A DNA stretch of 64,000 bases from Hydrogenophaga palleronii NBRC 102513. Its GTDB lineage: Bacteria > Pseudomonadota > Gammaproteobacteria > Burkholderiales > Burkholderiaceae_C. The translations under genes and the position numbers were made by a program. The stretch spans positions 1-64,000 of the forward strand of contig NZ_BCTJ01000007.1 of NCBI RefSeq assembly GCF_001571225.1. The letters are read 5' to 3'. The notes under the pieces are model-generated. The model ran no database searches, was not told where the DNA came from, and was given only the letters and a program-made list of their open reading frames with translations. This document shows positions 16 through 26,256 of the stretch, one piece after another; the first letter of the stretch is position 1, and every line of letters starts with the position of its first letter.

Positions 16-1332
16 TCAATACCTGTGGCCGGTCACGAACAAGGTGGCGCGCATGATGCCGAACGCGATGCGGTCCAGCAGGCGCTGCCGCCACGGGCGC
101 TGGCTCAGGGTCTGGGCGTTGAGCACCTGGCCAGCGTGCTGCAGCAAGCCGTCGAGGTAGGTGTGCAACAGTCCGGAGAAACGCCGGTCGTTGGTCATCA
201 CATTGGCCTCGCGCGCCAGCAGCATGGACAGCGGGTCGAGGTTGGTCGAGCCCACGGTGCTCCAGCGCCGGTCGATCACCGCCACCTTGGCGTGCAACGC
301 GCTCGGTGCGTACTCGTGGATCTCGATGCCGGCGTCCACCAGCTGCTGGTACACCGGCCGCGCCGCGCGGTACTGCATGAAGCGTTCGTACTTGCCCTGC
401 AACAGCAGGCGCACGCGCACGCCACGTGCGGCGGCCACGGTGAGCGCGCGCCGCAGCTTGCGCCCGGGAATGAAGTAGGCGTTGCAGATCACGATCTCGT
501 GCCGCGCCGCGCCAATGGCCTTCAGGTAAGCGCGCTCGATGTCGTGCCGGTGGCTCACGTTGTCGCGCAGCAGCAGCGTGGCGCGCGCACTGTCCACACC
601 CAGCGGAAAGGGCGAGGTCTCGGGGAACGGTCCCTCCAGCAGGGCCGGCTCGCTCAGCGCCACGTCGGTTTCGATCTTCTGCAGCAGGCGCGTGAAATCG
701 CCCACCGGGCGCGAGGCGCGCAAGGCGTCCCAGGCGGCCTTGAACTCGCGCTGGCGCACCCGGCGTGCCGCCAGCATGCGCCACCAGAGCTGCTCCATGG
801 CCTCGACCATGTCGTCCACCAGCGGGCCCGCCACGCGCAGGGCGAAGTCCAGCCGCGGTGCATTGAGCCGCCCGAGCACGACGTCGTCCTGGTCGTCGAT
901 GATGTTGATGCCGCCGCAGAAGCCCACCACCCCATCCACCACGCAGAGCTTGCGGTGCAGGCGGCGCCAGCGGCTCGGCAGCAACAGGCCCAGGCGGCCC
1001 AGCGGCGCATAGGTGCGCAGGGTCACGCCGGCGGCGGCAAAACGCTGCACCCACTCGGCGGGCACCTGCGGCGTGCCCACGCCATCGACCAGCAGGCGCA
1101 CCACCACGCCGCGTTGCGCCGCGCGCTCCAGCGCTTCGGCCACGCTCAGCGCGCTGCCGGCGAATTCGAAGATGTAGGTTTCCAGGTGCACCACGGTGCG
1201 CGCCGCGTCCATGGCCTGAACCAGCGAGGGGAAAAACGCCTCCCCACCCTGCAGCAGCAGCAACTGGTGACCACCGCGCATGGGCGCGTGCCGGGCGGCA
1301 CGCGCCACAGGGGCGGGTGGAGTGGCGCTCAC
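16..1332 (-). CDS. clsB: Cardiolipin synthase B-type phospholipase D protein
   Basis: 438-residue protein with two phospholipase D HKD motifs, HRKLCVVD near residue 126 and HAKVAVID near 347, each followed by a conserved stretch (GGINI, GSTNLDP). This two-HKD layout without N-terminal membrane helices is that of the ClsB subfamily, which transfers phosphatidyl groups to make cardiolipin (or phosphatidylglycerol) at the inner membrane. The GTG start at 1332 is chosen because it overlaps the upstream stop as GTGA; a longer reading to 1383 would overlap the neighbour by 55 bases. It is the last gene of the run with nudB and the EEP-family gene. The family is secure; the exact lipid substrate is inferred. 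Confidence 0.88.
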   Translation of the reverse strand: MSATPPAPVARAARHAPMRGGHQLLLLQGGEAFFPSLVQAMDAARTVVHLETYIFEFAGSALSVAEALERAAQRGVVVRLLVDGVGTPQVPAEWVQRFAAAGVTLRTYAPLGRLGLLLPSRWRRLHRKLCVVDGVVGFCGGINIIDDQDDVVLGRLNAPRLDFALRVAGPLVDDMVEAMEQLWWRMLAARRVRQREFKAAWDALRASRPVGDFTRLLQKIETDVALSEPALLEGPFPETSPFPLGVDSARATLLLRDNVSHRHDIERAYLKAIGAARHEIVICNAYFIPGRKLRRALTVAAARGVRVRLLLQGKYERFMQYRAARPVYQQLVDAGIEIHEYAPSALHAKVAVIDRRWSTVGSTNLDPLSMLLAREANVMTNDRRFSGLLHTYLDGLLQHAGQVLNAQTLSQRPWRQRLLDRIAFGIMRATLFVTGHRY

Positions 1333-2060
1333 AACAACTCGAGCTCGGCGATCAGGGGCAGGTGGTCCGACATGCGCGACCACACGCGGCCGTGCGGCAC
1401 ATGGGCCGAGACCGGCCGCAGGCCGCGCACGAAGACGCGGTCCAGGTGCAGCAGCGGCAGGCGCGATGGGTAGGTGGCGAGGCGGATGCCTTCGAAGGTG
1501 TGCAGGTCGAGCGCCGCCATCGGCCGCAGCAGCTGGGCACCCCAGTCGTTGAAGTCCCCCGCGACGATCAGCGGCGCATCGGGCGCCACGGTGGTCCTGA
1601 TGTGTTCGCCCAGGCGCTGCACCTGGCGTTCACGGCCGGCGTGCATCAGGCCGAAGTGCACCACGATCACATGCACCTGCACCTGCTCCACCAGCAGCTG
1701 CACGTGCAGCAGGCCACGTTGTTCGAAGCGGTGGTCGGACACGTCGGAGTGTTGGGTGTCCAGCACCGGCCAGCGCGACAGCAACGCGTTGCCGTGTTCG
1801 CCGTGGCGCGTGATGGCGTTGGTGCGGTAGATCGATTCGTAACCCTCGGGCGAGAGGTACCCGGCCTGGTCCAGGTCGGGCCAGCGGCTGAAGCTCTTCT
1901 CGAACTTGCGGTGGTGTCGGCGCACCTCCTGCAGGCAGACGATGTCGGCATCGAACTGCTCGACCGCATGTGCGAGGTTGTGGATCTCCAGCCGGCGGCC
2001 CGGGCCCAGGCCCTGCACTCCCTTGTGGATGTTGTAAGTGGCGACGCGCACGATGCTCAT
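1329..2060 (-). CDS. Endonuclease/exonuclease/phosphatase (EEP) family protein
   Basis: 243-residue EEP fold protein. Visible motifs in order: YNIHKG at the N terminus, LQEV (metal-binding Glu), GNALLS, GDFNDW (Asp/Asn catalytic pair) and the C-terminal SDHLPL (catalytic Asp-His). These are the metal-dependent phosphodiesterase signatures shared by ExoIII, DNase I and sphingomyelinase-like enzymes. The substrate cannot be read from sequence. Its place directly before clsB, with a 4-base stop/start overlap, suggests a phospholipid-related phosphodiesterase, but that is inference. ATG at 2060 is the first ATG; a TTG two codons earlier is possible. No signal peptide, so probably cytoplasmic. Confidence 0.85.
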   Translation of the reverse strand: MSIVRVATYNIHKGVQGLGPGRRLEIHNLAHAVEQFDADIVCLQEVRRHHRKFEKSFSRWPDLDQAGYLSPEGYESIYRTNAITRHGEHGNALLSRWPVLDTQHSDVSDHRFEQRGLLHVQLLVEQVQVHVIVVHFGLMHAGRERQVQRLGEHIRTTVAPDAPLIVAGDFNDWGAQLLRPMAALDLHTFEGIRLATYPSRLPLLHLDRVFVRGLRPVSAHVPHGRVWSRMSDHLPLIAELELL

Positions 2061-2082
2061 GTGCAAATCATGCCATCAAGGC

Positions 2083-2541
2083 TCAGGCGTGGGAGTGGAG
2101 CCCGCCCAGCAGCGGCAACCAGGTCAGGGCTTCTGCATTGGAGGGCGAAAAACAGCGCTCGGCCGCTTCGGGCCAGGGCAACCAGAGCTGGTCGCGGTGT
2201 TCGCGCGCGCTCAGCCGCACCGGCAGCGGCGCCGGAATGCACAGGCCGAACAGGTGCTCGGTGTTGTGCGTGATGCCGTCGGCATAACGGTGGCGCCATT
2301 GGGGATAAATCTCGTAGACGTTTTCCAGCCCCCAGTCGCGCAGGCTGTGGCCGGCGGCCAGCGCATCGAGCCCGGTTTCTTCCCGGACCTCACGCGCGGC
2401 GGTGGCCGCGAAGCTTTCGTCGACATGGTCCTTGGAGCCGGTGACGGATTGCCAGAAGCCGGGCGCATCGGCACGCTCTATCAGCAACACCTGCAGTGCA
2501 GGCGTGTGGATCACCACCAGCACCGACTGCGGAATCTTCAC
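2083..2541 (-). CDS. nudB: Dihydroneopterin triphosphate diphosphatase (Nudix)
   Basis: 152-residue Nudix hydrolase with the box GSKDHVDESF...REVREETGLDA at about residues 35-58, here with Asp where the Nudix consensus has the first Glu. The short N terminus (KIPQSVLVVIHT) and the sequence around NVYEIYPQWRHRY resemble NudB/FolQ, which removes pyrophosphate from dihydroneopterin triphosphate in folate synthesis. It starts with GTG at 2541 and lacks a clear Shine-Dalgarno sequence. Its stop lies 22 bases before the start of the EEP-family gene, consistent with one transcript. The neighbourhood aspS...nudB-EEP-clsB is one I recall from other betaproteobacteria. Confidence 0.85.
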   Translation of the reverse strand: MKIPQSVLVVIHTPALQVLLIERADAPGFWQSVTGSKDHVDESFAATAAREVREETGLDALAAGHSLRDWGLENVYEIYPQWRHRYADGITHNTEHLFGLCIPAPLPVRLSAREHRDQLWLPWPEAAERCFSPSNAEALTWLPLLGGLHSHA

Positions 2542-2565
2542 GGCGAACCGTTCAAGGTGTGGCGC

Positions 2566-2877
2566 TCAGCGCACGCGGCGCCGTGGGTTGCTGCTGGTGG
2601 TGGCGGCGCGCACGCGCTTGAAGGTCTGCCACATGGACCAGGCGCGCATGCCCAGCCCCAGCCAGCGTTGCGGGCGCGACACCGCCAGGCCCAGGCCACC
2701 GGCCAAGGCCACCAACGGGTTGTTGCGCAACCACATCACGCCATCGTGCACGCGGTCCATCCAGACCAGTGCCGGCTGCAATGCCATGGCGTCGTGCCGC
2801 ATGCGCCGGCGCAGCAGGGTCGAGCGCCGCAGCAGCGCTTCGCGCCGACGGGCCAGGACGATGCCACGAGGGTTCAC
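2566..2877 (-). CDS. Small basic YqjK-like protein
   Basis: 103-residue, strongly basic protein starting at a GTG that overlaps the yqjE stop as GTGA. The N-terminal half is Arg/Leu-rich and probably helical (ARRREALLRRSTLLRRRM). A short hydrophobic stretch NPLVALAGGLGLAV sits near residue 60, followed by a tryptophan- and arginine-rich tail. Position after YqjD- and YqjE-type genes matches the enterobacterial yqjDEK order, which is the main reason for the name. Function is unknown. An association with the inner membrane or ribosomes, as proposed for YqjD, is inference. Confidence 0.7.
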   Translation of the reverse strand: MNPRGIVLARRREALLRRSTLLRRRMRHDAMALQPALVWMDRVHDGVMWLRNNPLVALAGGLGLAVSRPQRWLGLGMRAWSMWQTFKRVRAATTSSNPRRRVR

Positions 2878-3260
2878 AGCTCGTCCTTGCTGGCGCGCAG
2901 GGCGGCGCTGTCCTGCCGCAGCTCTTCGACGCTGGCCGAGAACAGGCGGGTGCCCGAGCGAACGCGTTCGCGCGCGAGCCAGAGCGAACCACCACCGATC
3001 AACAAAAACAGGCCGGTGAAAATGCCCAGCGCCAGCAGGCGGTGTTGGTCCCACAGGGCCACCGTGATGAGCAGCGCGAGCAGCACGACGCCGAGACTGA
3101 GGAAGGCCACCGCCACCGCACCGTAGACCAGCAAGGCGCCGACACGCAGCACCTCTTCCTGGGCTTCGATGCTGAACAGCTCCAGCCGCAGCTGGACCAG
3201 TTCGATCGCGGTGGCAGCCAGGCCCTTGACGGACGAGGACAGGCGCTGCGGGCTGGCCAT
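2874..3260 (-). CDS. YqjE-type phage holin family membrane protein
   Basis: 128-residue protein with two adjacent hydrophobic segments, roughly residues 40-62 (VLRVGALLVYGAVAVAFLSL...) and 68-95 (LLALGIFTGLFLLIGGGSL). An amphipathic N terminus (IELVQLRLELFSIEAQEEV) precedes them. This is the layout of the phage_holin_3_6/YqjE family of inner-membrane proteins, which are host genes despite the holin name. It lies 14 bases downstream of the YqjD-type gene and is translationally coupled to the YqjK-like gene. The role is unknown; stationary-phase or stress membrane functions have been suggested for the enterobacterial set. Confidence 0.82.
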   Translation of the reverse strand: MASPQRLSSSVKGLAATAIELVQLRLELFSIEAQEEVLRVGALLVYGAVAVAFLSLGVVLLALLITVALWDQHRLLALGIFTGLFLLIGGGSLWLARERVRSGTRLFSASVEELRQDSAALRASKDEL

Positions 3261-3710: not shown

Positions 3711-3740
3711 AAAAAAGGGCGCCCCTCGGGCGCCCTTTTG
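3711..3740 (-). terminator. Rho-independent terminator after aspS
   Basis: GGGCGCCC/GGGCGCCC-type hairpin with a CTCG-like loop. On the minus strand it is followed by a run of six T (plus-strand 3711-3716 is all A). It lies 20 bases beyond the aspS stop and separates aspS from the yqjD start region. Confidence 0.85.
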
Positions 3741-3759
3741 CATGGCCATCGCGGAACGT

Positions 3760-5562
3760 TCAGCCGGCCTTGGCCAGGTCCACGTTGCGCAGTCGGATGT
3801 GCAGTTCGCGCAGCTGCTTCTCGTCCACCGGGCTGGGGGCCTGGGTCAGCAGGTCTTGCGCGCGCTGGGTCTTGGGGAAAGCGATCACGTCGCGGATCGA
3901 CTCGGCGCCAGTCATCAGCGTGATCAGGCGATCCAGGCCGAAGGCCAGGCCACCGTGCGGGGGCGCGCCATACTGCAGCGCGTCGAGCAGGTAACCGAAC
4001 TTCAGCTGCGCCGCCTCGGGCGTGATCTTCAGCGCGTCAAAGGCCTTCTGCTGCACGTCGGCGCGGTGGATACGCACCGAACCGCCGCCCAGCTCCCAGC
4101 CGTTGAGCACCATGTCGTAGGCCTTGGCCAGGCAGGCGCCCGGGTTGGTGTCCATCAGGTCTTCGTGGCCGTCCTTGGGGGCGGTGAAGGGATGGTGCAC
4201 GGCGTTCCAGCGCTGCTCGTCCTCGTCGAATTCGAACATCGGGAAGTCCACCACCCACAGCGGCGCCCAGCGGTTTTCGAACAGGCCGATCTTCTTGCCA
4301 AACTCGCTGTGGCCCACCTTCAGGCGCAGCGCGCCGATGGCGTCGTTGACGATCTTGAGCTTGTCGGCACCGAAGAACAGCAGATCGCCGTCCTGCGCGC
4401 CGGTGCGCTTGAGAATTTCGGTCAGGGCTTCGTCGTGCAGGTTCTTCACGATCGGCGACTGCAGGCCATCGCGGCCCTTGGCCACGTCGTTGACCTTGAT
4501 CCAGGCCAGGCCCTTGGCGCCGTAGATCTTGACGAATTCGGTATAGCCGTCGATCTCGCCACGGCTCATCTCGCTGCCACCGGGCACGCGCAGGGCCACC
4601 ACGCGGCCGCCTTCGGCATTGGCCGGGCCCGAGAAGACCTTGAAGTCCACAGTCTTCATGACTTCGGTCAGCTCGGTGAATTCGAGCTTCACGCGCAGGT
4701 CCGGCTTGTCGGAGCCGAAGCGGAAGGCGGCTTCCTGGTAGCTCATGATCGGGAACTCGCCCAGATCCACGTTCAGCTGGGTCTTGAAGACCTCGATGAC
4801 CATGCGCTGGAACAGCGCACGGATGTCCTCTTCACCCAGGAAGGAGGTCTCGCAGTCGATCTGCGTGAACTCGGGCTGGCGGTCGGCGCGCAGGTCTTCG
4901 TCGCGGAAGCACTTGGTTATCTGGTAGTAGCGGTCGTAGCCGGCCACCATCAGCATCTGCTTGTACAGCTGGGGCGACTGCGGCAGCGCGAAGAAGTGGC
5001 CGTCGTGCACGCGGCTGGGCACGAGGTAGTCGCGCGCGCCTTCGGGCGTGCTCTTGCCCAGCATGGGCGTCTCGATGTCCACGAAGCCTTCGGCATCGAG
5101 GAAGTTGCGCACCTGCATCGCCACCTTGTAGCGCAACATCAGGTTCTTCTGCATGTAGGGGCGGCGCAGGTCGAGCACACGGTGCGTGAGGCGCGTGGTC
5201 TCCGACAGGTTCTCGTCGTCGATCTGGAACGGCGGCGTGACGGACGCGTTGAGCACCTTGAGTTCGTGGCACAGCACCTCGATCTGGCCGCTCTTGAGCT
5301 TGTCGTTGGTGGTGCCGGCGGGACGCGCGCGCACCAGGCCGGTGACCTGCACGCAGAACTCGTTGCGCACGTCTTCGGCGGTGTTGAACATCTCGGCGCG
5401 GTCGGGGTCGCACACCACCTGCACGTAGCCTTCGCGGTCGCGCAGGTCGATGAAGATCACACCACCGTGGTCGCGGCGGCGGTTCACCCAGCCGCAGAGC
5501 TGCACGGTTTGGCCCAACTGGGCTTCGGTCACCAGACCGCAATAGTGGGTACGCATCGCCAT
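3760..5562 (-). CDS. aspS: Aspartyl-tRNA synthetase
   Basis: 600-residue class II synthetase of bacterial AspRS length. It has an N-terminal OB-fold anticodon-binding domain ([20 protein letters not shown]), motif 2 [18 protein letters not shown] near residue 218, the large bacterial insertion (GAD domain) in the middle, and motif 3 GLAFGLDRL near 539. It charges tRNA-Asp. I see no asparaginyl-tRNA synthetase in the window, so whether this enzyme also charges tRNA-Asn (non-discriminating type) cannot be judged here. The start at 5562 is followed by a second ATG at 5556. Preceded by the DUF502 gene 48 bases upstream in the same direction and followed by a terminator. Confidence 0.97.
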
Positions 5563-5610
5563 TTCGCTTCTTCTTTCAACAGGTTCGCAGGCCAGGCCCG
5601 CGGGGACACA

Positions 5611-6288
5611 TCAGGACAGGGGAGTGATGGCGCCGTCGGCCGCCACCTTGATCTGGGGATTCTTCGGTCCACCGGGCACGATCACACCCATGGAGACGAT
5701 GTAGGTCAGCGCTTCGTCCACGCTCATCTGCAGCTCGATGCAGGCGCTCTTGCGCAGCATCACGAAATAACCGCCGGTGGGGTTGGGCGTGGTCGGCACG
5801 TAGACGCTCAAGAACTCGTCGTGCTCGGCGCCACCGGGCATGGACTGCAGGTGGCCCAGCACGTCGCCCGCCGGGGAACCGGTGAGAAAGGCGATGGTCC
5901 ACATGCCCTCGTGCGGCCATTGCACCAGCAAGGCCTTGCGAAAGGCATTGCCCTTCTCGGAGAACAGCGTGTCCGACACCTGCTTGACGCCGGAGTAGAT
6001 GGAGCGCACCACCGGAATGCGGTGCAGCAATGCATGCCACCAGCCCACCAGCTTGTTGCCGATGATGTTGGAGGCCAGGGCGCCGATGGTGAGCACCACC
6101 ACCAGCGCGAACAACACGCCCAGCCCCGGAATGTGCATGCCGAAGAGCTGGTCGGGCTGCCAGCTGGTGGGCAGGATGCGCAGGGTCAGGTCGAGCGTGC
6201 TCACCACCCAGTCCAGCACCCACAGGGTGATGATCAGGGGCACCAGGACCAGCAGGCCGGCAAACAGCCATTTGCGCACGGAGGGCAT
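5611..6288 (-). CDS. DUF502 family inner-membrane protein
   Basis: 225-residue protein with two N-terminal membrane segments, about residues 5-27 (KWLFAGLLVLVPLIITLWVL) and 55-76 (GLGVLFALVVVLTIGALASN). The conserved DUF502 body follows (PVVRSIYSGVKQVSDT and VPTTPNPTGGYFVMLRKS). Homologues are widespread and of unknown function; plant relatives (LCV/COV) affect cell patterning and trafficking. It sits between the FmdB-type gene (8-base gap) and aspS, a recurring betaproteobacterial order that suggests one transcript. Confidence 0.88.
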   Translation of the reverse strand: MPSVRKWLFAGLLVLVPLIITLWVLDWVVSTLDLTLRILPTSWQPDQLFGMHIPGLGVLFALVVVLTIGALASNIIGNKLVGWWHALLHRIPVVRSIYSGVKQVSDTLFSEKGNAFRKALLVQWPHEGMWTIAFLTGSPAGDVLGHLQSMPGGAEHDEFLSVYVPTTPNPTGGYFVMLRKSACIELQMSVDEALTYIVSMGVIVPGGPKNPQIKVAADGAITPLS

Positions 6289-6296
6289 GTAAAGGC

Positions 6297-6650
6297 TCAG
6301 TTGCTGCTGCTCGAGGATGGGGTGGTGCTGGCCGGTGCCGGCGCGGGCGACGCAGCAGGGGCGGCGGCCGGGGCCGGCGCAGCGGCGGCAGCGCCATCAC
6401 CCGCCGGTTTGGCGGCCGGTGCGGACGCGCCGCCATCGGTGGCCGGGGCGGTGGTGGCTGGCTTGTTGCCTTCGCGGAAATCGGTCACGTACCAGCCGGA
6501 CCCCTTGAGCTGGAAGCCGGCGGCGGTCAGTTGTTTCTTGAAGCTGGCCTGCCCGCAGGCCGGACACACGCTGAGCGGGTCATCCGACATTTTTTGCAGC
6601 ACGTCCTTGGCATGGCCGCAGGACTCGCACTTGTAGGCATAAATAGGCAT
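6297..6650 (-). CDS. FmdB-family zinc ribbon protein with Pro/Ala tail
   Basis: 117-residue protein. Residues 1-45 are the FmdB zinc ribbon: MPIYAYKCESCGH, then CPACG (two CxxC pairs). Residues 46-60 keep the family end (GFQLKGSGWYVTDF). From about residue 62 to the end it is almost only Ala, Pro, Ser and Gly, a low-complexity tail ending in SSSSSN. FmdB proteins are small putative regulators or zinc-binding proteins of uncertain function. The ATG at 6650 is the only start that begins with the conserved MPIYAY. A TATAAT-like sequence lies about 100 bases upstream. Confidence 0.88.
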   Translation of the reverse strand: MPIYAYKCESCGHAKDVLQKMSDDPLSVCPACGQASFKKQLTAAGFQLKGSGWYVTDFREGNKPATTAPATDGGASAPAAKPAGDGAAAAAPAPAAAPAASPAPAPASTTPSSSSSN

Positions 6651-6746
6651 GGCGTGGACTTGGGTGGTGGGCAGTGGCGCCCCGGTGGAGCCGGACACCG
6701 CACGGTGCCGGATGCTCCCCGTGCGGGACGTGGAACAAAACCGGCC

Positions 6747-6752
6747 ATTATA
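6747..6752 (-). promoter_or_regulatory. Candidate -10 box for the fmdB-DUF502-aspS unit
   Basis: A perfect TATAAT on the minus strand lies in the 164-base gap between ubiB and the FmdB-type gene. A perfect TTGACA occurs upstream at 6764-6769, but only 11 bases separate the two, so they cannot work as one standard sigma-70 pair. The -10 may be used alone, or the matches are chance. Confidence 0.4.
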
Positions 6753-6814
6753 AATTGAGGGTGTGTCAACCGCCCGCGCCCGGTAAGCGCCCCTGCCAGC
6801 CGGCAGCGGGGGCT

Positions 6815-8380
6815 CTACCAGAGGCTCACGCGCATCAGCACCTGGACCACCACCAGGCCGATCAGAAAGCCGAAACCGCAGTAGATGATGGCCTGCAGCA
6901 GGCGGTTGGTGCGGCGCTGCTCGGCCACCAGAGTGTCGAGTTCGCGCCGCAGTTCGTGCGGCTTGTGCTGCAGGTAATCGTGCAGCAGGCGTGGCAGGGC
7001 GGGCAGCAGCTTGGCGTATTGCGGCGCCTCGGCCTTGAGCTGCTGCAGCAGCTTCTGCGGGCCGACCTGCTCCACCATCCACTTTTCCAGGAAGGGCTTG
7101 GCGGTGCTCCAGAGATCGAGTTCGGGGTCGAGATCGCGCCCCAGGCCTTCGATGTTGAGCAGGGTTTTCTGCAGCAGCACCAGCTGCGGCTGGATCTCGA
7201 CGTGGAAGCGGCGCGAGGTCTGGAACAGCCGCATCAGCACCATCCCGAGCGAAATTTCCTTCAGCGGCCGGTCAAAGTACGGTTCGCAGACCGCGCGGAT
7301 CGAAGACTCCAGCTCGTCGATCCGGGTGTCGGCCGGCACCCAGCCGGACTCGACGTGCAACTCGGCCACCCGTTTGTAGTCGCGCCGGAGGAAGGCGGTG
7401 AAGTTCTGCGCCAGGTATTCCTTGTCGAACTCGGTCAGCGTGCCGACGATGCCGAAGTCGAGCGAGATGTAGCGCCCGAAGGTGCCGGGCGCGGTGCTGA
7501 CCTGGATGTTGCCCGGGTGCATGTCGGCATGGAAGAAGCCGTCGCGGAACACCTGGGTGAAGAAGATGGTGACGCCGTCGCGCGCCAGCTTCGGGATGTC
7601 CACGCCGGCAGCGCGCAAGGCGTCGACGCGGTTGATCTGGATGCCGTGCATGCGCTCCATCACCATCACTTCGGTGTGGCAGTAGTCCCAGAGCATCTCC
7701 GGGATCAGCACCAGATCGAGGCCCTGCATGTTGCGGCGCAGCTGGGCCGCGTTGGAGGCTTCGCGCAGCAAGTCGAGCTCGTCGTGCAGGTACTTGTCGA
7801 ACTCGGCCACCACCTCGCGCGGCTTCAGGCGCTTGCCGTCGGCAGACAGGCGCTCGACCCAGCCGGCCATCATGCGCATCAGGCTCAGGTCTTTGTCGAT
7901 CACCGGCCGCATGTTGGGCCGCAGCACCTTCACCGCCACCTCGCGCCCGCCGTGGCGGCCGTCGAGCAAGGTGGCGAAGTGCACCTGGGCGACGGACGCA
8001 CTGGCCACCGGCACCTGCTCGAAGTGCGAGAACACGGCCGACAGCGGTTTTCCGAAGGCGCGCTCGATGGTGGCCACCGCGACCTCGCTGGGGAACGGCG
8101 GCACCCGGTCTTGCAGGTGCGCGAGCTCGTCGGCGATGTCGGGCGGCAGCAGGTCGCGTCGGGTCGAGAGCACCTGGCCGAACTTGACGAAGATCGGGCC
8201 CAGCCGCTCCAGCGCCTCACGCAGGCGCGCGCCGCGCGGGGCGTCGAGTTTGCGTCCGGTGGAGACGATGCGCGTCAGCAGGCGGATCCACGGCCGCTCG
8301 AAGCTGGAGAGCACCAGCTCGTCAAGGCCGTAACGCAGCACCACCCAGACGATGAAGGCGCCCCGGAACAAACGACTCAT
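6815..8380 (-). CDS. ubiB: UbiB ubiquinone biosynthesis kinase-like protein
   Basis: 521-residue member of the ABC1/ADCK/UbiB atypical kinase family. It keeps the KxGQ motif of the N-terminal extension ([16 protein letters not shown]), the invariant Lys in the beta-3 strand (VAVKVLRP), [10 protein letters not shown] in the catalytic loop and the metal-binding LDFGIVG. Two hydrophobic helices close the protein ([23 protein letters not shown]). UbiB is needed for aerobic ubiquinone synthesis, probably as an ATPase that helps hydrophobic intermediates leave the membrane. The start overlaps the ubiJ stop as ATGA. Confidence 0.95.
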
Positions 8381-9068: not shown

Positions 9069-10061
9069 TTATTGCAGGGCCTGCACACCGGCCACCAGCC
9101 AGCCGCCGGAGCCGGCTTTGGGGCGGGTGATGTTCCAGACTTCGCGGAACGGATTCGGGCCAGCCGAGGCTTCTTCGCGGATCAGGCCGGAGAACTCCAC
9201 GCTGGCCATGTACTCACCGTGCAGTTCCTCGATGCCCAGCAACTGGGCTTCGAGCATCACCACCTCGGTCTTGTTCACGCGGCCACCGGCCGATTCCTCG
9301 CGCTCGGCAAGCTGGCTGCGGATCTGCTCCAGCATGTCGTCGGTCATCATGGCGCGCAGGGCCGGGATGTCGGAACGGTCCCAGGCGTCCTGCAGGCTCA
9401 CGAAGTTAGCCTTGGAGGCCTTGAGGAAACCTTCGGCGTCGAAACCGGCGGGCACACCCCAGTTCTGGCTGCCCTGCAGCGCGGAACCGATCTGCGAACC
9501 CCCGTTGGCCGCGGTCAGGCCGGCCGGGCCGCTGCGCTCCCAGGGACGCGCCGACGCATCGTTGCCGACGTTCTGCGGCTGGTAGCTGCGTGGCGTGACG
9601 GGCTCGAACTGCGAGCGACCAGCGCCCTGGTAAGCCATGGAAGGCGAAGAGGCTTGTGTGCCGGTGGCACCCGCGCGGCGGCGCATCACCATGCCGATGA
9701 CCGCCATGACCACCATGGCCAGCAGGCCGAACAGCAGGATCTGGCCGAAGGCTTCACCCAGGCCCAGGCTGGAGGCCAGCCAGGCCAGGCCGAGGCCGGC
9801 GGCCAGGCCACCCAGCATGGCGCCCCAGGGGCGCTTGGGCGCGGCAGCGGCGGCACCCGCGGGGGTGGCCGGGCGCGCGGCGGCGTTCTGCGACGGGGCT
9901 TGCTGTGGCGCCGCCTGTTGCGACGGGGGCGCGCTGTTGCGCTGCGTCACGTTGCCGGACTGCTTGCCGAACGACATCCCGCCGCCCATGCGCTTGGCCC
10001 ACACATCGTGCGAGCCCAGCGCCATCACGCAGACCAACAACACCGACCACAACTTGTTCAT
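9069..10061 (-). CDS. Tim44-like domain membrane protein
   Basis: 330-residue protein with a signal peptide or anchor (LWSVLLVCVMALGSHDVWA), the glycine-rich KRMGGGMSFGKQS typical of bacterial Tim44-like proteins, a Gln/Ala/Pro-rich linker, and two hydrophobic segments around residues 80-125. The C-terminal Tim44-like domain (about 195-330) includes FLKASKANFVSLQDAWD and ends GGWLVAGVQALQ. In mitochondria Tim44 anchors the import motor; the bacterial proteins have no settled role. It stands between ubiE and ubiJ in the same direction with gaps of 67 and 56 bases, so a link to quinone synthesis or to the membrane is plausible but unproven. Confidence 0.87.
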   Translation of the reverse strand: MNKLWSVLLVCVMALGSHDVWAKRMGGGMSFGKQSGNVTQRNSAPPSQQAAPQQAPSQNAAARPATPAGAAAAAPKRPWGAMLGGLAAGLGLAWLASSLGLGEAFGQILLFGLLAMVVMAVIGMVMRRRAGATGTQASSPSMAYQGAGRSQFEPVTPRSYQPQNVGNDASARPWERSGPAGLTAANGGSQIGSALQGSQNWGVPAGFDAEGFLKASKANFVSLQDAWDRSDIPALRAMMTDDMLEQIRSQLAEREESAGGRVNKTEVVMLEAQLLGIEELHGEYMASVEFSGLIREEASAGPNPFREVWNITRPKAGSGGWLVAGVQALQ

Positions 10062-11316: not shown

Positions 11317-14300
11317 TCAGACCAGCACGCGTTCGATGCCGCCTTCGTTGGCCTTGGCCACGTACTCGGGCAGCCATTCTTCGCCGAGGATCTGGCGCGC
11401 CATCTCCACCACGATGTAATCGGCTTCGAGCAGGCCCGACTTGAGGTCGTCGCCATAGCGGCTCAGACCCTGCAGGCAGCTCGGGCACGAGGTGAGGATC
11501 TTCACGTTGTCCTTCTCGCCCACGGTACCGGCGGCGCGCAGGGCGGCTTCGCCCTTCTGGATTTCCTCTTCCTTGCGGAAGCGGATCTGGGTCGAGATGT
11601 CGGGCCGGGTCACGCCCAGCGTGCCCGATTCACCGCAGCAACGCTTGCTCTCCAGCACGTTGTCACCAACCAGCGCCTTCACGGTCTTCATCGGGTCCTG
11701 CAGCTTCATCGGCGTGTGGCAGGGGTCGTGGTACAGGTAACCGCCCTGTCCGGCCGGCAGCGTGATGCCCTTTTCCAGCAGGTACTCGTGGATGTCGATG
11801 ATGCGGCAGCCAGGGAAGATCTTGTCGAACTCATACCCCTGGAGCTGGTCGTAGCAGGTGCCGCAGCTCACCACCACGGTCTTGATGTCCAGGTAGTTGA
11901 GCGTGTTGGCCACGCGGTGGAAGAGCACCCGGTTGTCGGTGATCATCTTCTCGGCCTTGTCGAACTGGCCACTGCCGCGCTGCGGATAACCGCAGCACAG
12001 GTAACCCGGCGGCAGCACGGTCTGCACGCCGGCGTGCCACAGCATCGCCTGGGTGGCCAGGCCGACCTGCGAGAACAGGCGCTCCGAACCGCAACCCGGG
12101 AAATAGAACACCGCCTCCGTTTCCGCGGTGGTGGCCACCGGGTTGCGGATGATGGGCACGTAGTCCTTGTCTTCGATGTCCAGCAAGGCGCGCGCGGTTT
12201 TCTTGGGCAGGCCACCGGGCATCTTCTTGTTGATGAAGTGGATCACCTGCTCTTTTATCGGTGCCGTGCCCAGCGTGGCTGGCGGCGCGCTGGTCTGCTT
12301 GCGCGCCACGCGCTGCAGCACCTCGTTGGCCAGGCGCTGGGCCTTGAAGCCCACGCCCACCATGGCGCCACGCACGAACTTGATGGTCTCGGGGTTGGTC
12401 GCGTTGAGGAAGAACATGGCCGCGGCATTGCCGGGCCGGAAGCTCTTCTGTCCCATCTTGCGCAACAGGTTGCGCATGTTCATGGTGACATCGCCGAAGT
12501 CGATCTTCACAGGGCAGGGGCTCAGGCACTTGTGGCAGACCGTGCAGTGGTCGGCCACGTCCTCGAACTCTTCCCAGTGCTTGATGCTGATGCCGCGCCG
12601 GGTCTGCTCTTCGTACAGGAAGGCTTCCACCAGCAGCGAGGTGGCCAGAATCTTGTTGCGCGGCGAGTACAGCAGGTTGGCGCGCGGCACGTGCGTGGCG
12701 CAGACCGGCTTGCACTTGCCGCAGCGCAGGCAGTCCTTGACGCTGTCGGCGATGGCGCCGATCTCGCTGCGCTGCATGATGATCGACTCGTGCCCCATCA
12801 GCCCGAAGCTGGGGGTGTAAGCGTTGGACAGGTCGGCGCTGCGCAGGCTGGCATCGCCCACCGGCCCCTGGCGCAGCAGCTTGCCCTTGTTGAAGCGGCC
12901 TTCGGGGTCGACGCGCTGCTTGTAGTCGGCAAAGGGCTGCAGCTCCTCGTCGGTGAGGAACTCCAGCTTGGTGATGCCGATGCCGTGTTCGCCCGAGATC
13001 ACGCCGTCCAGCCGGCGCGCCAGCACCATGATGCGCGCCACCGCTTCGTGTGCGGTCTGCAGCATCTCGTAGTCGTCGCTGTTGACCGGGATGTTGGTGT
13101 GCACGTTGCCGTCGCCGGCGTGCATGTGCAGCGCCACCCAGACCCGGCCCTTGAGCACGCGCTTGTGGATCGCATTGCATTCGGCCAGCAGCGGGCCGAA
13201 GGCGGCGCCGGTGAAGATGCCTTGCAGCGGCGCGCGGATCTGGGTTTTCCAGCTCGCGCGCAGGCGGTGGTCTTGCAATTGCGGGAACAGCTCGTCGATG
13301 TCGCGCAGCCAGCCGCTCCAGAGCGCACGCACCTCGCGCACCAGGGCCAGGGCCTGCTGCACGCGGTCTTCCAGCAGCTCGGCGCTGGGGATGTCGCTGG
13401 CGTCGTCGGTCTTGCCCAGCGGCAGGTTGCCCTTGGAGAAGAGGGCTTCCAGCGCGTCGGCCAGCTTGATCTTGTTGCGCAGCGACAGCTCGATGTTGAT
13501 GCGCTCGATGCCTTCGGTGTACTCGCCCATGCGCGGCAGCGGGATCACCACGTCTTCGTTGATCTTGAAGGCGTTGGTGTGCTTGCTGATGGCCGCGGTG
13601 CGCTTGCGGTCGAGCCAGAATTTCTTGCGCGCTTCGGCGCTGATGGCGACGAAGCCTTCACCGCTGCGCGAGTTGGCCAGGCGGATCACCTCGCTGGAGG
13701 CGCGCGCCACGGCGTCGGCGTCGTCACCGACGATGTCGCCGATCAGCACCATCTTGGGCAGGGTGCCGCGCTTGCTCTTGGTCGCGTAGCCCACGGCCTT
13801 CAGGTAACGGTCGTCGAGGTGCTCCAGGCCGGCCAGGATGGCGCCACCGGGGCGCTTCATCTCGCCGAACATGAAGTCCTTGATGTCCACGATGGACGGC
13901 ACGCAGTCCTTGGGGTTGCCGAAGAATTCCAGACAGACCGTGCGCACGTGCTCGGGCATGCGATGCACCAGCCAGCGCGCGCTGGTGATCAGGCCATCGC
14001 AGCCCTCCTTCTGGATGCCCGGCAGGCCGCTGAGGAATTTGTCGGTGACGTCCTTGCCCAGGCCTTCCTTGCGGAAGGTGCGGCCAGGAATCACCAGTTT
14101 CTCGGTGCGCACCGGCGTCTTGCCGTCGGCCTCGAAGTACTGCAACTCGAAGGTGGCGACCTCGGCGTCGTGGATCTTGCCCAGGTTGTGGTCCAGGCGG
14201 GTCACTTCGAGCCATTGCGCCTGCGGCGTGACCATGCGCCACGACACCAGGTTGTCCAGCGCCGTGCCCCAGAGCACGGCCTTTTTGCCACCCGCGTTCA

Positions 14301-15195
14301 TGGCGACGTTGCCGCCCACGCAGGAAGCCTCGGCCGAGGTCGGGTCCACCGCGAACACATGGCCGGCGCGCTCGGCCGCATCGGCCACGCGCTGGGTGAC
14401 CACACCGGCCTCGGTCCAGACCGTGGGCAAGGGTTTGTCGTGGCCGGGCACCTTCACCCATTCCACCTCGGTCATGGCCTCAAGCTTCTCGGTGTTGATC
14501 ACCACGCTCTTCCAGGTCAGCGGGATCGCGCCGCCGGTGTAGCCGGTGCCGCCGCCGCGCGGGATGATGGTCAGGCCGAGCTCGATGCAACCCTTGACCA
14601 GGCGCGCCATCTCGGCCTCGGTGTCGGGGCACAGCACCACGAAGGGGTACTCCACGCGCCAGTCGGTCGCGTCGGTCACGTGCGACACGCGCGACAGGCC
14701 GTCGAACTTGATGTTGTCCTTGGCGGTCAGCTTGCGCAGCGCCTTGGTGGCGCGCTGGCGCAGCGCGGCCATGTCTTCGAAGGAGCGGGCAAAACGGTCC
14801 ACCGCCGCGCGCGCGTCGGTCAGCATCTCGACCACCAGGGCGTCACGCCCGGCGTCGTCGGCCGGGGTGCGGCGCTTCTGCACCTCGCCCAGGCGGTGGT
14901 GCAAGGCGTCGACCAGTTGCTGGCGGCGCTTCGGCGTGTCGAGCAGGTCGTCCTGAAGGTAGGGGTTGCGCTGCACCACCCAGATGTCGCCCAGCACTTC
15001 ATAGAGCATGCGGGCCGAACGCCCGGTGCGGCGCTCGCCGCGCAGGCTGTCCAACAGGGACCATGCGCGCTCACCGAGCAGGCGCAGGACGATCTCTCGA
15101 TCCGAGAAAGAGGTGTAGTTGTAGGGGATCTCGCGCAGGCGCGGCGCATCGTCGGTGGCGGTCGCGAGCAGCGAGAGCGGTGTGGGAGCGTTCAT
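11317..15195 (-). CDS. DUF3683 FAD-linked oxidoreductase with Fe-S and CCG domains
   Basis: About 1292 residues, a fusion equivalent to GlcD plus GlcF. In order: an N-terminal DUF3683 region; an FAD-binding PCMH domain with [15 protein letters not shown] near residue 208; an FAD-oxidase C domain with [12 protein letters not shown] near 689 and [13 protein letters not shown]; two [4Fe-4S] motifs, [11 protein letters not shown] near 819 and [12 protein letters not shown] near 883; and two cysteine-rich CCG domains ([10 protein letters not shown] near 1065, CCGESGT near 1184). The family oxidises 2-hydroxy acids such as D-lactate or glycolate and passes electrons to quinones; the substrate here is unknown. 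Start uncertain: ATG at 15195 is preferred, 15219 possible. Confidence 0.9.
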
Positions 15196-15322
15196 GTGTG
15201 TGGCTTTAGTCGCCAGCATGACAGTAGTGGGTCCAAGATGGTACCGCAGCGCAACATACACCCTGGGCCCCTGTGGAAACCCCTGTTGTCACCTTCGGGA
15301 AACGCATGTGCAATGGTTTTGA

Positions 15323-24105: not shown

Positions 24106-24429
24106 ATGAGCGACGCACAAAACCGCATTGACCAACTCGTCAAATCCCACGACATCGTGCTGTTCATGAAGGGCAGCGCGAGCTTTCCCATGTGCGGCTT
24201 TTCCGGTCGCGCCATCCAGATCCTCAAGGCCTGCGGCGTCGAAACCCGAACGCTGGCCACCGTCAACGTGCTCGAAGACGATGGCATCCGCCAGGGCATC
24301 AAGGAATACAGCAACTGGCCGACCATTCCGCAGCTCTACGTCAAGGGCGAGTTCGTCGGCGGCTCGGACATCATGATGGAGATGTACCAGTCGGGCGAAC
24401 TGCAGCAGGTCATCAACGGCCAGGCCTGA
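24106..24429 (+). CDS. grxD: Monothiol glutaredoxin Grx4
   Basis: 107-residue monothiol glutaredoxin with the CGFS active site in FPMCGFSGRA near residue 30 and the glutathione-binding WPTIPQLYVKGEFVGGSDI. Proteins of this type carry a glutathione-bridged [2Fe-2S] cluster and deliver Fe-S clusters with BolA partners. Clear AAGGAG ribosome site seven to ten bases before the ATG. It forms its own transcription unit: a -10 candidate upstream and a strong terminator 24 bases downstream. Confidence 0.95.
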   Translation: MSDAQNRIDQLVKSHDIVLFMKGSASFPMCGFSGRAIQILKACGVETRTLATVNVLEDDGIRQGIKEYSNWPTIPQLYVKGEFVGGSDIMMEMYQSGELQQVINGQA

Positions 24430-24452
24430 GCCGGCCGTTCTCCTGCCCGCCA

Positions 24453-24480
24453 ACAGCCACCTTCGGGTGGCTGTTTTGTT
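24453..24480 (+). terminator. Rho-independent terminator after grxD
   Basis: Nine-base stem ACAGCCACC/GGTGGCTGT closed by a stable TTCG tetraloop (24462-24465) and followed by TTTGTT. Textbook intrinsic terminator. Confidence 0.92.
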
Positions 24481-24611
24481 GTCGGCCTGCGCCTTTTCAC
24501 ACACCCGGGGCCGGTGCCTTCATTTGCGGTCGCTTTGCGGCCTTGTTCGGCTTGGTCATCCGGCACGTCCTGTGCTTGAATGAAAGCGTCGCCGCAACCA
24601 AGGAGAACCGC

Positions 24612-25616
24612 ATGAGCTCACGCAGCCTGGTCGCTTCACCCGCCCTCGGCCTGCCCATCGCCCAGATGCGCAGCGTGTTCAGCGCCGACGATGTCGAACG
24701 CAAGCTGGCCCTTCTGCAAGCCAGCGGCAACGAGCGCGAACACGAAAGCCTGCGCAACACCTGGCAGCGCATGCTGGAACGCGGCCCACAACGCTTCGCC
24801 GTCAAACCCTCCAGCGTGCCCGACATGGCACCGCTCTACGACCTGCTGCCCAACTTCGGCGAGGTGCTCGACGACGTGAAGCGCCACGTCGCCCTGAGCC
24901 AGGACAGCCGGGACAGCCTGGAAGTCACACCCATCCTGCTGCTGGGCCCGCCGGGCGTGGGCAAGACCCACTTCGCGCGCCAGCTCGCCGACCTGCTGGG
25001 CACCGGCATGAGCCTGGTGCCGATGAGCTCCATGACGGCGGGCTGGCTGCTGTCGGGTTCGTCCTCGCAATGGAAGGGCGCCAAACCCGGCAAGGTGTTC
25101 GAGGCCCTGGTCGATGGCCAGTACGCCAACCCGGTGATCGTGGTCGACGAAATCGACAAGGCCGCGGCCGACGCGCAGTACGACCCGCTGGGCGCGCTCT
25201 ACAGCCTGCTGGAACACGACACGGCGCAGAGCTTCATTGACGAGTTCGCCGAGGTGCCGATCGACGCCAGCCAGGTGATCTGGGTCACCACCGCCAACGA
25301 CGAGCGCGCGATCCCCGAGCCCATCATGAACCGCATGAACGTCTACGAGATCGCACCACCTTCGCCGGAGGCCGCGCGCAAGATCGCCGCGCACCTGTAC
25401 CGCGGCATCCTGGGCGAACACGACTGGGGCCAACGCTTCGAGCCCGAACCACCGGCCGATGTGCTGGACCTGCTGGCCACGCTGGCGCCGCGCGAAATGC
25501 GGCGCGCGTTGTTGACGGCGTTTGGCAATGCCCGGCTGGACCAGCGTTACCGCGTCGAACCCGACGACCTGCCGCGCCACGGCGCGGGCAAGGGCCGCAT
25601 CGGCTTCCTGCAGTGA
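24612..25616 (+). CDS. Lon-like AAA+ ATPase without protease domain
   Basis: 334-residue AAA+ protein. Walker A GPPGVGKT is at residues 112-119 and Walker B VVDEIDKA near 177-184. The sensor-1/arginine-finger region WVTTANDERAIPEPIMNRM resembles the ATPase module of Lon protease. There is no Ser-Lys protease domain after it, only a small helical lid ending at GRIGFLQ, and no Lon substrate domain before it. Substrate and partners are unknown. A good GGAGAA ribosome site precedes the ATG at 24612. It stands alone: a terminator before it and a convergent gene ten bases after. Confidence 0.85.
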   Translation: MSSRSLVASPALGLPIAQMRSVFSADDVERKLALLQASGNEREHESLRNTWQRMLERGPQRFAVKPSSVPDMAPLYDLLPNFGEVLDDVKRHVALSQDSRDSLEVTPILLLGPPGVGKTHFARQLADLLGTGMSLVPMSSMTAGWLLSGSSSQWKGAKPGKVFEALVDGQYANPVIVVDEIDKAAADAQYDPLGALYSLLEHDTAQSFIDEFAEVPIDASQVIWVTTANDERAIPEPIMNRMNVYEIAPPSPEAARKIAAHLYRGILGEHDWGQRFEPEPPADVLDLLATLAPREMRRALLTAFGNARLDQRYRVEPDDLPRHGAGKGRIGFLQ

Positions 25617-25626
25617 GGGGCCGGTT

Positions 25627-26256
25627 TCAGGCGTCGGGGTGCGCCCAGGCCTTGGCCGCCGCGTAGACCGCGTTCGGGTACTCGGCGCGCCCGCGGCTGC
25701 CGTTGTAGCGGCCGAGCGCGAGAAAGGTGTCGCCGCGTTCGCGGTCCAGGTAGTGGCGCAGGATCACGCAGCCAAAGCGCAGGTTGGTCTGCATGTTGAA
25801 CAGGCGACTGGCATCGCCGTCGCCGATCAGGCGCGACCAGAACGGCATGATCTGCATGTAGCCGCGCGCACCCACGCGCGAAATAGCGAACTTGCGGAAC
25901 GCGCTCTCCACCTGCACCAGGCCCAGCACCATCGTGGTGTCCAGGCCGGCGCGCCGCGTTTCGTACCAGAGGGTCTGGAGAAACTCGATGCGGGTCTGGA
26001 AGTCGGGTTTGCGGCGCTGCAGCTTGTCGCTGCTGGCACCCAGCCAGCGCAGGTAGGCCAGGCGGCGCTCCAGTTGGGCGAACTCGGGCACCGGCGGCGC
26101 GCTGTTGGCGATTGCGGCACTCAAGGCACCACGCACCGAATCGGCGAGCGGTTCTTCCAGTTGCCCGCCCGCGTGCGCCAGTCCGGGCAGCGCGCCAAGG
26201 CCCAGCGAGCCAGCGGCCAGCAGGCAGTCGCGGCGCGACCAGGCCTGCAAACTCAT
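25627..26256 (-). CDS. Lytic transglycosylase with Tat-like signal
   Basis: 209-residue SLT-fold enzyme. The catalytic Glu is E117 in [24 protein letters not shown], which fits the SLT pattern ESxF...GAxGLMQ. It is followed by [14 protein letters not shown] and LGRYNGSRG, which bind glycan. It would cleave peptidoglycan strands to 1,6-anhydro products in the periplasm. The N terminus [19 protein letters not shown] is a twin-arginine type signal ending near AHA. Its start overlaps the proS stop as ATGA, so the two are cotranscribed. Confidence 0.88.

Follow-up and report, generated by a model that had tools for sequence, protein, structure and literature searches.

The question raised by this locus is how a AAA+ ATPase with a Lon-like motor might work when no protease is attached to it. 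The locus lies in a 64,000-nucleotide stretch of DNA from Hydrogenophaga palleronii NBRC 102513 (hereafter the window), and an initial annotation had described its product as a free-standing Lon-like module, suggesting an unfoldase or remodeller which would either act alone or feed another protease.

The gene and its Lon-type motor

The open reading frame (ORF) starts with an ATG at position 24612 and comprises 334 codons followed by a stop codon at 25614-25616, as the ORF check of the window showed. It is preceded by a ribosome-binding-site-like sequence (Table 1), and AAGGAG or GGAG is likewise found 5' of many orthologues (25 nt upstream, 47 rows). Because the reading frame is kept in orthologues at 56-94% identity, with the highest value among the named genomes found in Hydrogenophaga (at most 94%, protein), we conclude from its conservation that the ORF is a real gene. 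The genes located upstream on the same strand in the window are prfA, prmC and the grxD-like glutaredoxin gene, and the opposite strand encodes the SLT transglycosylase and a class II tRNA synthetase with an editing domain (proS-like). Since a terminator separates grxD from the ATPase gene, the latter is probably transcribed by itself. Terminator-like hairpins in the 210 nt upstream of the gene were detected in 30 of the 50 rows at 70.4% identity or more, compared to 4 of 50 shuffled rows, and in 9 of the 52 rows at 64-70% identity, compared to 3 shuffled ones. Further away in the window (11317-15219, minus strand), a 1300-aa protein is encoded, which is a very large flavin/iron-sulphur oxidoreductase with DUF3683, FAD-oxidase, cysteine-rich, 4Fe-4S and DUF3400 domains.

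Table 1 Features of the ATPase gene, its product and the adjacent genes in window coordinates.
Feature	Position	Strand	Basis or remark
grxD-like glutaredoxin, 5' neighbour	24106..24429	+	context only
Intrinsic terminator in the grxD/ATPase gap	24452..24475	+	perfect 10-bp stem, TTCG loop, T tail
AAGGAG, ribosome-binding-site-like	24600..24605	+	6 nt before the ATG
Lon-type AAA+ ATPase, free-standing	24612..25616	+	334 aa plus stop; ORF, profile, PDB sequence and fold matches
Variable N-terminus, residues 1-20	24612..24671	+	pLDDT <50
Helical segment matching the pre-AAA+ segment of Lon, residues 21-80	24672..24851	+	AlphaFold model, residues 21-334 on LONP1 427-760
Walker A GPPGVGKT, residues 112-119	24945..24968	+	
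W154, aromatic at the position of pore loop 1 in Lon	25071..25073	+	
Walker B VIVVDE, residues 175-180	25134..25151	+	
Sensor 1 TAN, residues 227-229	25290..25298	+	
Arginine finger R241	25332..25334	+	
Sensor 2 arginine R294	25491..25493	+	
Variable basic linker, residues 322-329	25575..25598	+	most frequent residue of each column found in 30-56 of 107 rows
C-terminal tail I-G-F-L-Q, residues 330-334	25599..25613	+	family signature basic-x(0-2)-[IMLV]-G-F
SLT transglycosylase, convergent neighbour	25627..26256	-	context only

The relationship of the motor to Lon was apparent in all comparisons. The top NCBIfam match was TIGR00763 (lon, E 2.9e-34), which paired residues 99-261 with profile positions 347-510 of 795 only and, at 118.6 bits, stayed below the curated cut-off of 608.05. 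In a sequence search of the PDB, the best 32 matches were all Lon (top E 8.9e-26), and an HMM-HMM alignment (hhalign) of 54 family members with 30 Lon proteases gave a probability of 99.9 (E 3e-31) over residues 41-323. A structure-based search, which the initial annotation had proposed, was performed with an AlphaFold model built from 37 sequences; the model is of moderate quality (mean pLDDT 67.2, pTM 0.61; 50.7-59.4 for the other four models). All 50 Foldseek matches listed were Lon, and VIA-align put 26 Lon entries at the top of its list (Z 17.8 to 13.7), followed by ClpC (13.5) and then ClpA, whereby we do not exclude any family on the basis of the rows ranking below Lon. In these alignments, model residues 21 to 325-334 pair with LONP1 427-762 or with about residues 260-597 of bacterial Lon. 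Taking the model as a guide, we conclude that the protein is composed of the Lon helical segment, the AAA+ core and the small domain, and ends near the start of the Lon protease domain.

The absence of a Ser-Lys protease domain, as stated by the initial annotation, is borne out by the end of the ORF directly after the AAA+ small domain and by the partial TIGR00763 span, and neither Lon N-domain nor Lon protease models were found among the 25 of 27 Pfam matches listed. The proposed lack of a substrate domain needs to be refined. The globular Lon N-terminal domain is indeed missing, since only about 100 residues precede Walker A, but residues 21-80 do carry structure, as the AlphaFold model shows mostly helices there, which align with the stretch located in Lon just before its AAA+ core. 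The module is free-standing, and every ATPase and threading element is kept. Residue and tail conservation was counted in 107 orthologues from 107 genomes, all of which share G112, G115, G117, K118 and T119 of Walker A, D179 and E180 of Walker B, T227 and N229 of sensor 1, as well as R241, R294 and W154. The stretch in which sensor 1 and the arginine finger had been recognised, TTANDERAIPEPIMNRM, corresponds to residues 226-242 and contains the invariant N229 and R241. W154 is also tryptophan in 14/14 rows of an alignment including relatives down to 28% identity, and in the HMM-HMM alignment its counterpart is the tyrosine in the RRTYIGS stretch of Lon. We take this tyrosine to be Tyr398 of E. 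coli Lon, a position that is also reached by counting, and presumably it represents the substrate-gripping pore loop 1 of Lon. Judged by these residues, the protein has the elements needed by a threading motor.

The protein shares with Lon the AAA+ core and the small helical domain, the preceding helical segment, the aromatic residue at the pore-loop place, the arginine finger and the sensors, whereas it differs in the two missing domains and is placed apart from the sampled Lon proteases in trees; a separate Lon is encoded in the same genome. The models of the Clp ATPases scored far below their cut-offs, with 19.1 versus 359 bits for ClpX and 23.4 versus 993 bits for ClpA. HslU is also a single-ring AAA+ unfoldase and appears in the fold list at Z ~12, whereas its TIGR00390 model reached 18.6 versus 362.45 bits; Pfam AAA_3, which we take to be the model of the MoxR type (MoxR/RavA), reached 16.9 versus 27 bits. 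ClpX, ClpA and ClpC lie far from the protein in a broad AAA+ tree with long branches, which was built without E. coli RavA, as its P-loop did not fit the extraction pattern. No curated family model exceeded its cut-off among the 25 of 49 NCBIfam matches listed. The outcome that would have overturned the initial annotation, a place within an AAA+ family that is already characterised and whose partner is known, thus did not arise. By the tests applied, it stands outside the Lon protease and Clp ATPase families, with a Lon-like motor and perhaps a Clp-ATPase-like way of working. Its relatives are named 'AAA family ATPase' or 'hypothetical protein' in databases, and our literature searches, which covered open-access papers, found no paper on such a protein.

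A conserved C-terminal tail

All 107 orthologues end with [I/M/L/V]-G-F plus one to three further residues. The initial annotation mentions neither this tail nor the occurrence of the family on chromosomes and plasmids. The residue before GF is I in 75, M in 24, L in 5 and V in 3 of them, whereas column 331 is always G and column 332 always F, and the six residues before the tripeptide hold at least two basic ones. Glycine is encoded by all four of its codons and phenylalanine by both of its codons in these columns, and since synonymous codons vary so freely, it is the peptide and not the DNA that is under conservation at the tail. The last ten residues of the AlphaFold model have pLDDT values below 50, as expected of a free tail. 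The tail is carried by 79 of the 80 named orthologue loci listed; in the exception, L190 (a Hydrogenophaga MAG contig), GF and the stop codon are missing at the usual place and the frame reads on, which is either a sequence error or a real change.

The tripeptide is also present in free-standing Lon-type AAA+ relatives that are only 30-45% identical and have different N-termini, some of which are encoded on plasmids. Their tails include TIGFLG, GIGFIAT, SMGFV, GVGFVSEGWN, AVGFISSN, KIGFM and RVGFLR, and four relatives (L373-L376) stop exactly after IGF. When [ILVM]-G-[FY] was required among the last twelve residues, the tail was present in 39 family rows and missing from 16, out of 58 tree rows (55 family, 3 Lon). 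Among 29 non-Lon clusters (50% identity), it was present in all rows of 14, in some rows of 2 and in none of 13; the counts by row and by cluster omit duplicate loci, L059 (no Walker A found, tail TIGFI) and L167, the C-terminus of which is cut beside an IS3 transposase. As a control, the same rule matched 6 of 448 unrelated C-termini (5 GY, 1 GF), and a stricter rule matched 3 of 455 after ten family members had been set aside. The 16 rows without the tail include the near-misses L066 (PGF), L381 (YGF) and L384 (VGF, but located fifteen residues before the end), and the relative L077 has GY in place of GF. Genuine absences mostly fall into two groups, with ends in -LH, -VH, -RH or otherwise. 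Relatives without IGF (L034, L069, L071, L073, L074, L388, L391) often have a short tail with a terminal histidine, e.g. KRWLH, KTWLH, RPMLH, RALH or KHVH, which is perhaps another docking tail.

The tail might be no more than what a truncation has left of the strand with which the Lon protease domain opens, as this domain starts with [V/I]-G-x-V near the place at which the protein ends in fold alignments; the corresponding region reads [VI]-G-x-V-T-G-L-A-W-T or nearly so in 30 Lon proteases. A vestige would be expected to drift, yet G and F do not vary at all, in contrast to the linker. Moreover, F occupies its position in none of the 30 Lon proteases (V 18, Q 6, L 2, I 2, E 1, G 1). Confidence in the HMM-HMM alignment extends to residue 323 only; if it is forced on, IGF is left unpaired with the strand. 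A common origin of the tail segment and the Lon strand is possible, but since the phenylalanine is conserved, we conclude that the tail has a use of its own, which makes a mere vestige most improbable. Hydrophobic C-termini can serve as degradation tags in bacteria, and accordingly the tail could be a regulatory degradation signal, or else a lock on its own ring, and no docking site at all. We regard this as very unlikely: two residues, commonly V/M/L then Q/H, follow the phenylalanine in 103 of the 107 orthologues, and the distance of the tripeptide from the C-terminus varies among the relatives.

Spread and mobile relatives

Of the 200 genomes sampled from the GTDB family to which the strain belongs, 107 have an orthologue with an E-value better than 1e-110; at E <= 1e-20, 178 of the 200 genomes matched, many of these matches being Lon itself. 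A class sample yielded 8 of 274 genomes that reach 1e-30, including the own genome and a genus mate, and in the phylum sample (398 genomes) 22 matched at 1e-50 or better, with the best Lon-length match at 8.8e-48. From this we conclude that the ATPase gene is a chromosomal gene in its family. With regard to a phage origin of the gene, 9 phage records matched at 1e-12 or better, each over less than 80% of the query, and a viral scan returned at least 80 loci with a best identity of 37%. A 75% identical orthologue on a contig filed as an Akkermansia muciniphila MAG (L229) is probably misbinned Comamonadaceae DNA.

In 107 context rows, in which genome G190 is counted twice and G194 is left out, the upstream gene was grxD in 50 (70-100% identity), gspE/gspF in 41, kup in 4 and none of these in 5; in 7 further rows, only the 5'-nucleotidase that often follows gspE/gspF was located upstream. 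The G194 orthologue (L020) has prmC and grxD upstream. Genes of the neighbourhoods were predicted with a caller tuned to G+C-rich DNA, which called little or nothing in some of the L074-L079 stretches. The position of the gene tracks the clade and not a partner. An operon partner was therefore rejected, given that orthologue positions differ by clade and that the terminator lies between grxD and the ATPase gene. A general link to type II secretion was dismissed as well, since gspD/E/F upstream in 41/107 rows was attributed to a clade-fixed position, which is absent in the grxD-type (50) and kup-type rows; within the gsp-type clade such a link may exist. A role of the window gene in defence was also rejected, because its neighbours are housekeeping genes and its PADLOC matches are generic AAA ones only (best TRIP13 6.4e-08, IetA 4e-04).

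In trees, the protein and its orthologues formed a group with 99-100% support, which is surrounded by relatives from plasmids and islands. The Lon proteases sampled make up a tight group of their own, apart from most free-standing rows; the roots and deep order of these trees are unsure, the deep forks are weakly supported, and some long branches are drawn together, such as L166 and Lon. The island and plasmid paralogues have the motor in common with the window protein, and many also share the tail, whereas they mostly have longer N-termini (whole proteins ~320-610 aa), are found in mobile contexts and include two subgroups without the tail.

Five paralogues without the IGF tail (L034 7489-10232 in the same genome, L069, L071, L166, L169) belong to a recurrent cassette on islands and plasmids, in which they are accompanied by a HAD_SAK_2 protein ('Swiss Army Knife RNA repair') and a metallophosphoesterase; this cassette may represent an undescribed RNA-repair or defence-like system. 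The second copy of the own genome, L034, is located in an island, as indicated by the adjoining genes (504-3044, minus strand, and 3719-7492, plus strand, among them) for an OloA-like protein (PADLOC, E 2e-61), a phage-type integrase and a 700-aa protein without a Pfam match. Plasmids of Klebsiella and Aeromonas (L163, L165) encode closely similar 524-aa ATPases with the tail, and because the proteins and the layout of their neighbours are alike on plasmids of two different orders, a recent transfer of the cassette is indicated. A defence role is conceivable for the paralogues.

Possible partners of the tail

Between acting alone and feeding another protease, the alternatives left by the initial annotation, the evidence leans to the second, by way of a conserved tail that resembles the ClpP-docking tripeptide. 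According to PMC8745299, each Clp ATPase protomer has a flexible loop with (L/I/V)-G-(F/L), which is bound by hydrophobic pockets of ClpP, and PMC7966870 describes plastid ClpB3 as lacking the IGF motif and being therefore unable to dock. The strict pattern (L/I/V)-G-(F/L) fits 83 of the 107 orthologues, including the window protein (IGF), and leaves the 24 with MGF outside. The genome encodes one ClpP, at 9134-9673 of its contig C4, and its ClpX carries IGF (GIGFGA). Like ClpX, ClpA and ClpC, of which ClpC and ClpA are the second-best fold matches, the window protein would be a separate unfoldase with a hydrophobic-G-F tripeptide.

We therefore favour, at a probability of roughly 40%, a threading unfoldase, the tails of which would dock a separate peptidase, most likely ClpP. 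The protein would be a Lon-type AAA+ unfoldase that has lost, or never had, a covalently attached protease. Its subunits would assemble into a hexameric ring, substrate proteins would be pulled through the pore by W154, and six flexible tails would emerge from the ring at the place taken in Lon by the start of the protease. There they would hold a separate barrel peptidase, most likely the housekeeping ClpP, the pockets of which bind the same tripeptide in ClpX, ClpA and ClpC and would thus take these tails. Relatives with the same motor and tail and other N-terminal parts would be versions for other substrates. Since a linear IGF peptide alone had very little activity on ClpP in earlier work, as cited in PMC8745299, the avidity of the ring would be needed for docking by the tails.

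In favour of ClpP docking, no neighbour is common to all contexts, which fits a partner encoded elsewhere. Against it stand the position of the tripeptide, which is found on an internal loop in the Clp ATPases but at the C-terminus (residues 330-332 of 334) in the window protein, the 24 orthologues with MGF, the single relatives with GY, YGF or PGF, the very low activity of the linear peptide, the 13 of 29 clusters without the motif by our rule, among them the second copy in the own genome (L034), and the mean pLDDT of just 67. In addition, no clpP or hslV gene was found near family members by tblastn in 165 stretches, while the E. coli positive control was detected. The lack of a nearby peptidase gene would also suit a threading remodeller or disaggregase that works without a peptidase and releases its substrates unfolded or refolded, with the tail binding another protein, a neighbouring subunit or an adaptor. 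The tripeptide is short, [IMLV]-G-F could suit other surfaces, and relatives with other tails exist, so that we consider such a remodeller a serious candidate, itself with less than an even chance; what speaks against it is that the G and F of the tail are invariant, resemble a known docking motif and are sited at the Lon protease start. Alternatively, the tails could dock HslV or a peptidase that has escaped recognition. Such C-terminal docking has a parallel in the proteasomal RPT tails, which enter pockets of the alpha-ring according to PMC7226402, but the motif matches the tripeptide of ClpP, and an HslV-like gene was likewise missing from the 165 stretches, which makes another peptidase unlikely.

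Extending the ClpP reading to the whole family, we tentatively propose a new, unnamed class of ClpP-dependent AAA+ unfoldases, with a Lon motor whose own protease would be replaced by a C-terminal IGF tail docking the housekeeping ClpP. This class would comprise a standing chromosomal gene of Comamonadaceae and sister groups, and mobile versions with other substrate domains that would borrow the ClpP of their host.

The ClpP of Pseudomonadota is commonly described as working with ClpX and ClpA. If docking by the tail holds true, a third, Lon-derived partner, widespread in one family and also present on plasmids, would enlarge the range of ClpP substrates, and mobile elements would gain a route to the degradation machine of their host. 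The idea is directly testable through a single residue change in the tail or a short peptide. Such a partner would also provide a natural case of a motor and a protease that form one protein in one family and two separate proteins in another.
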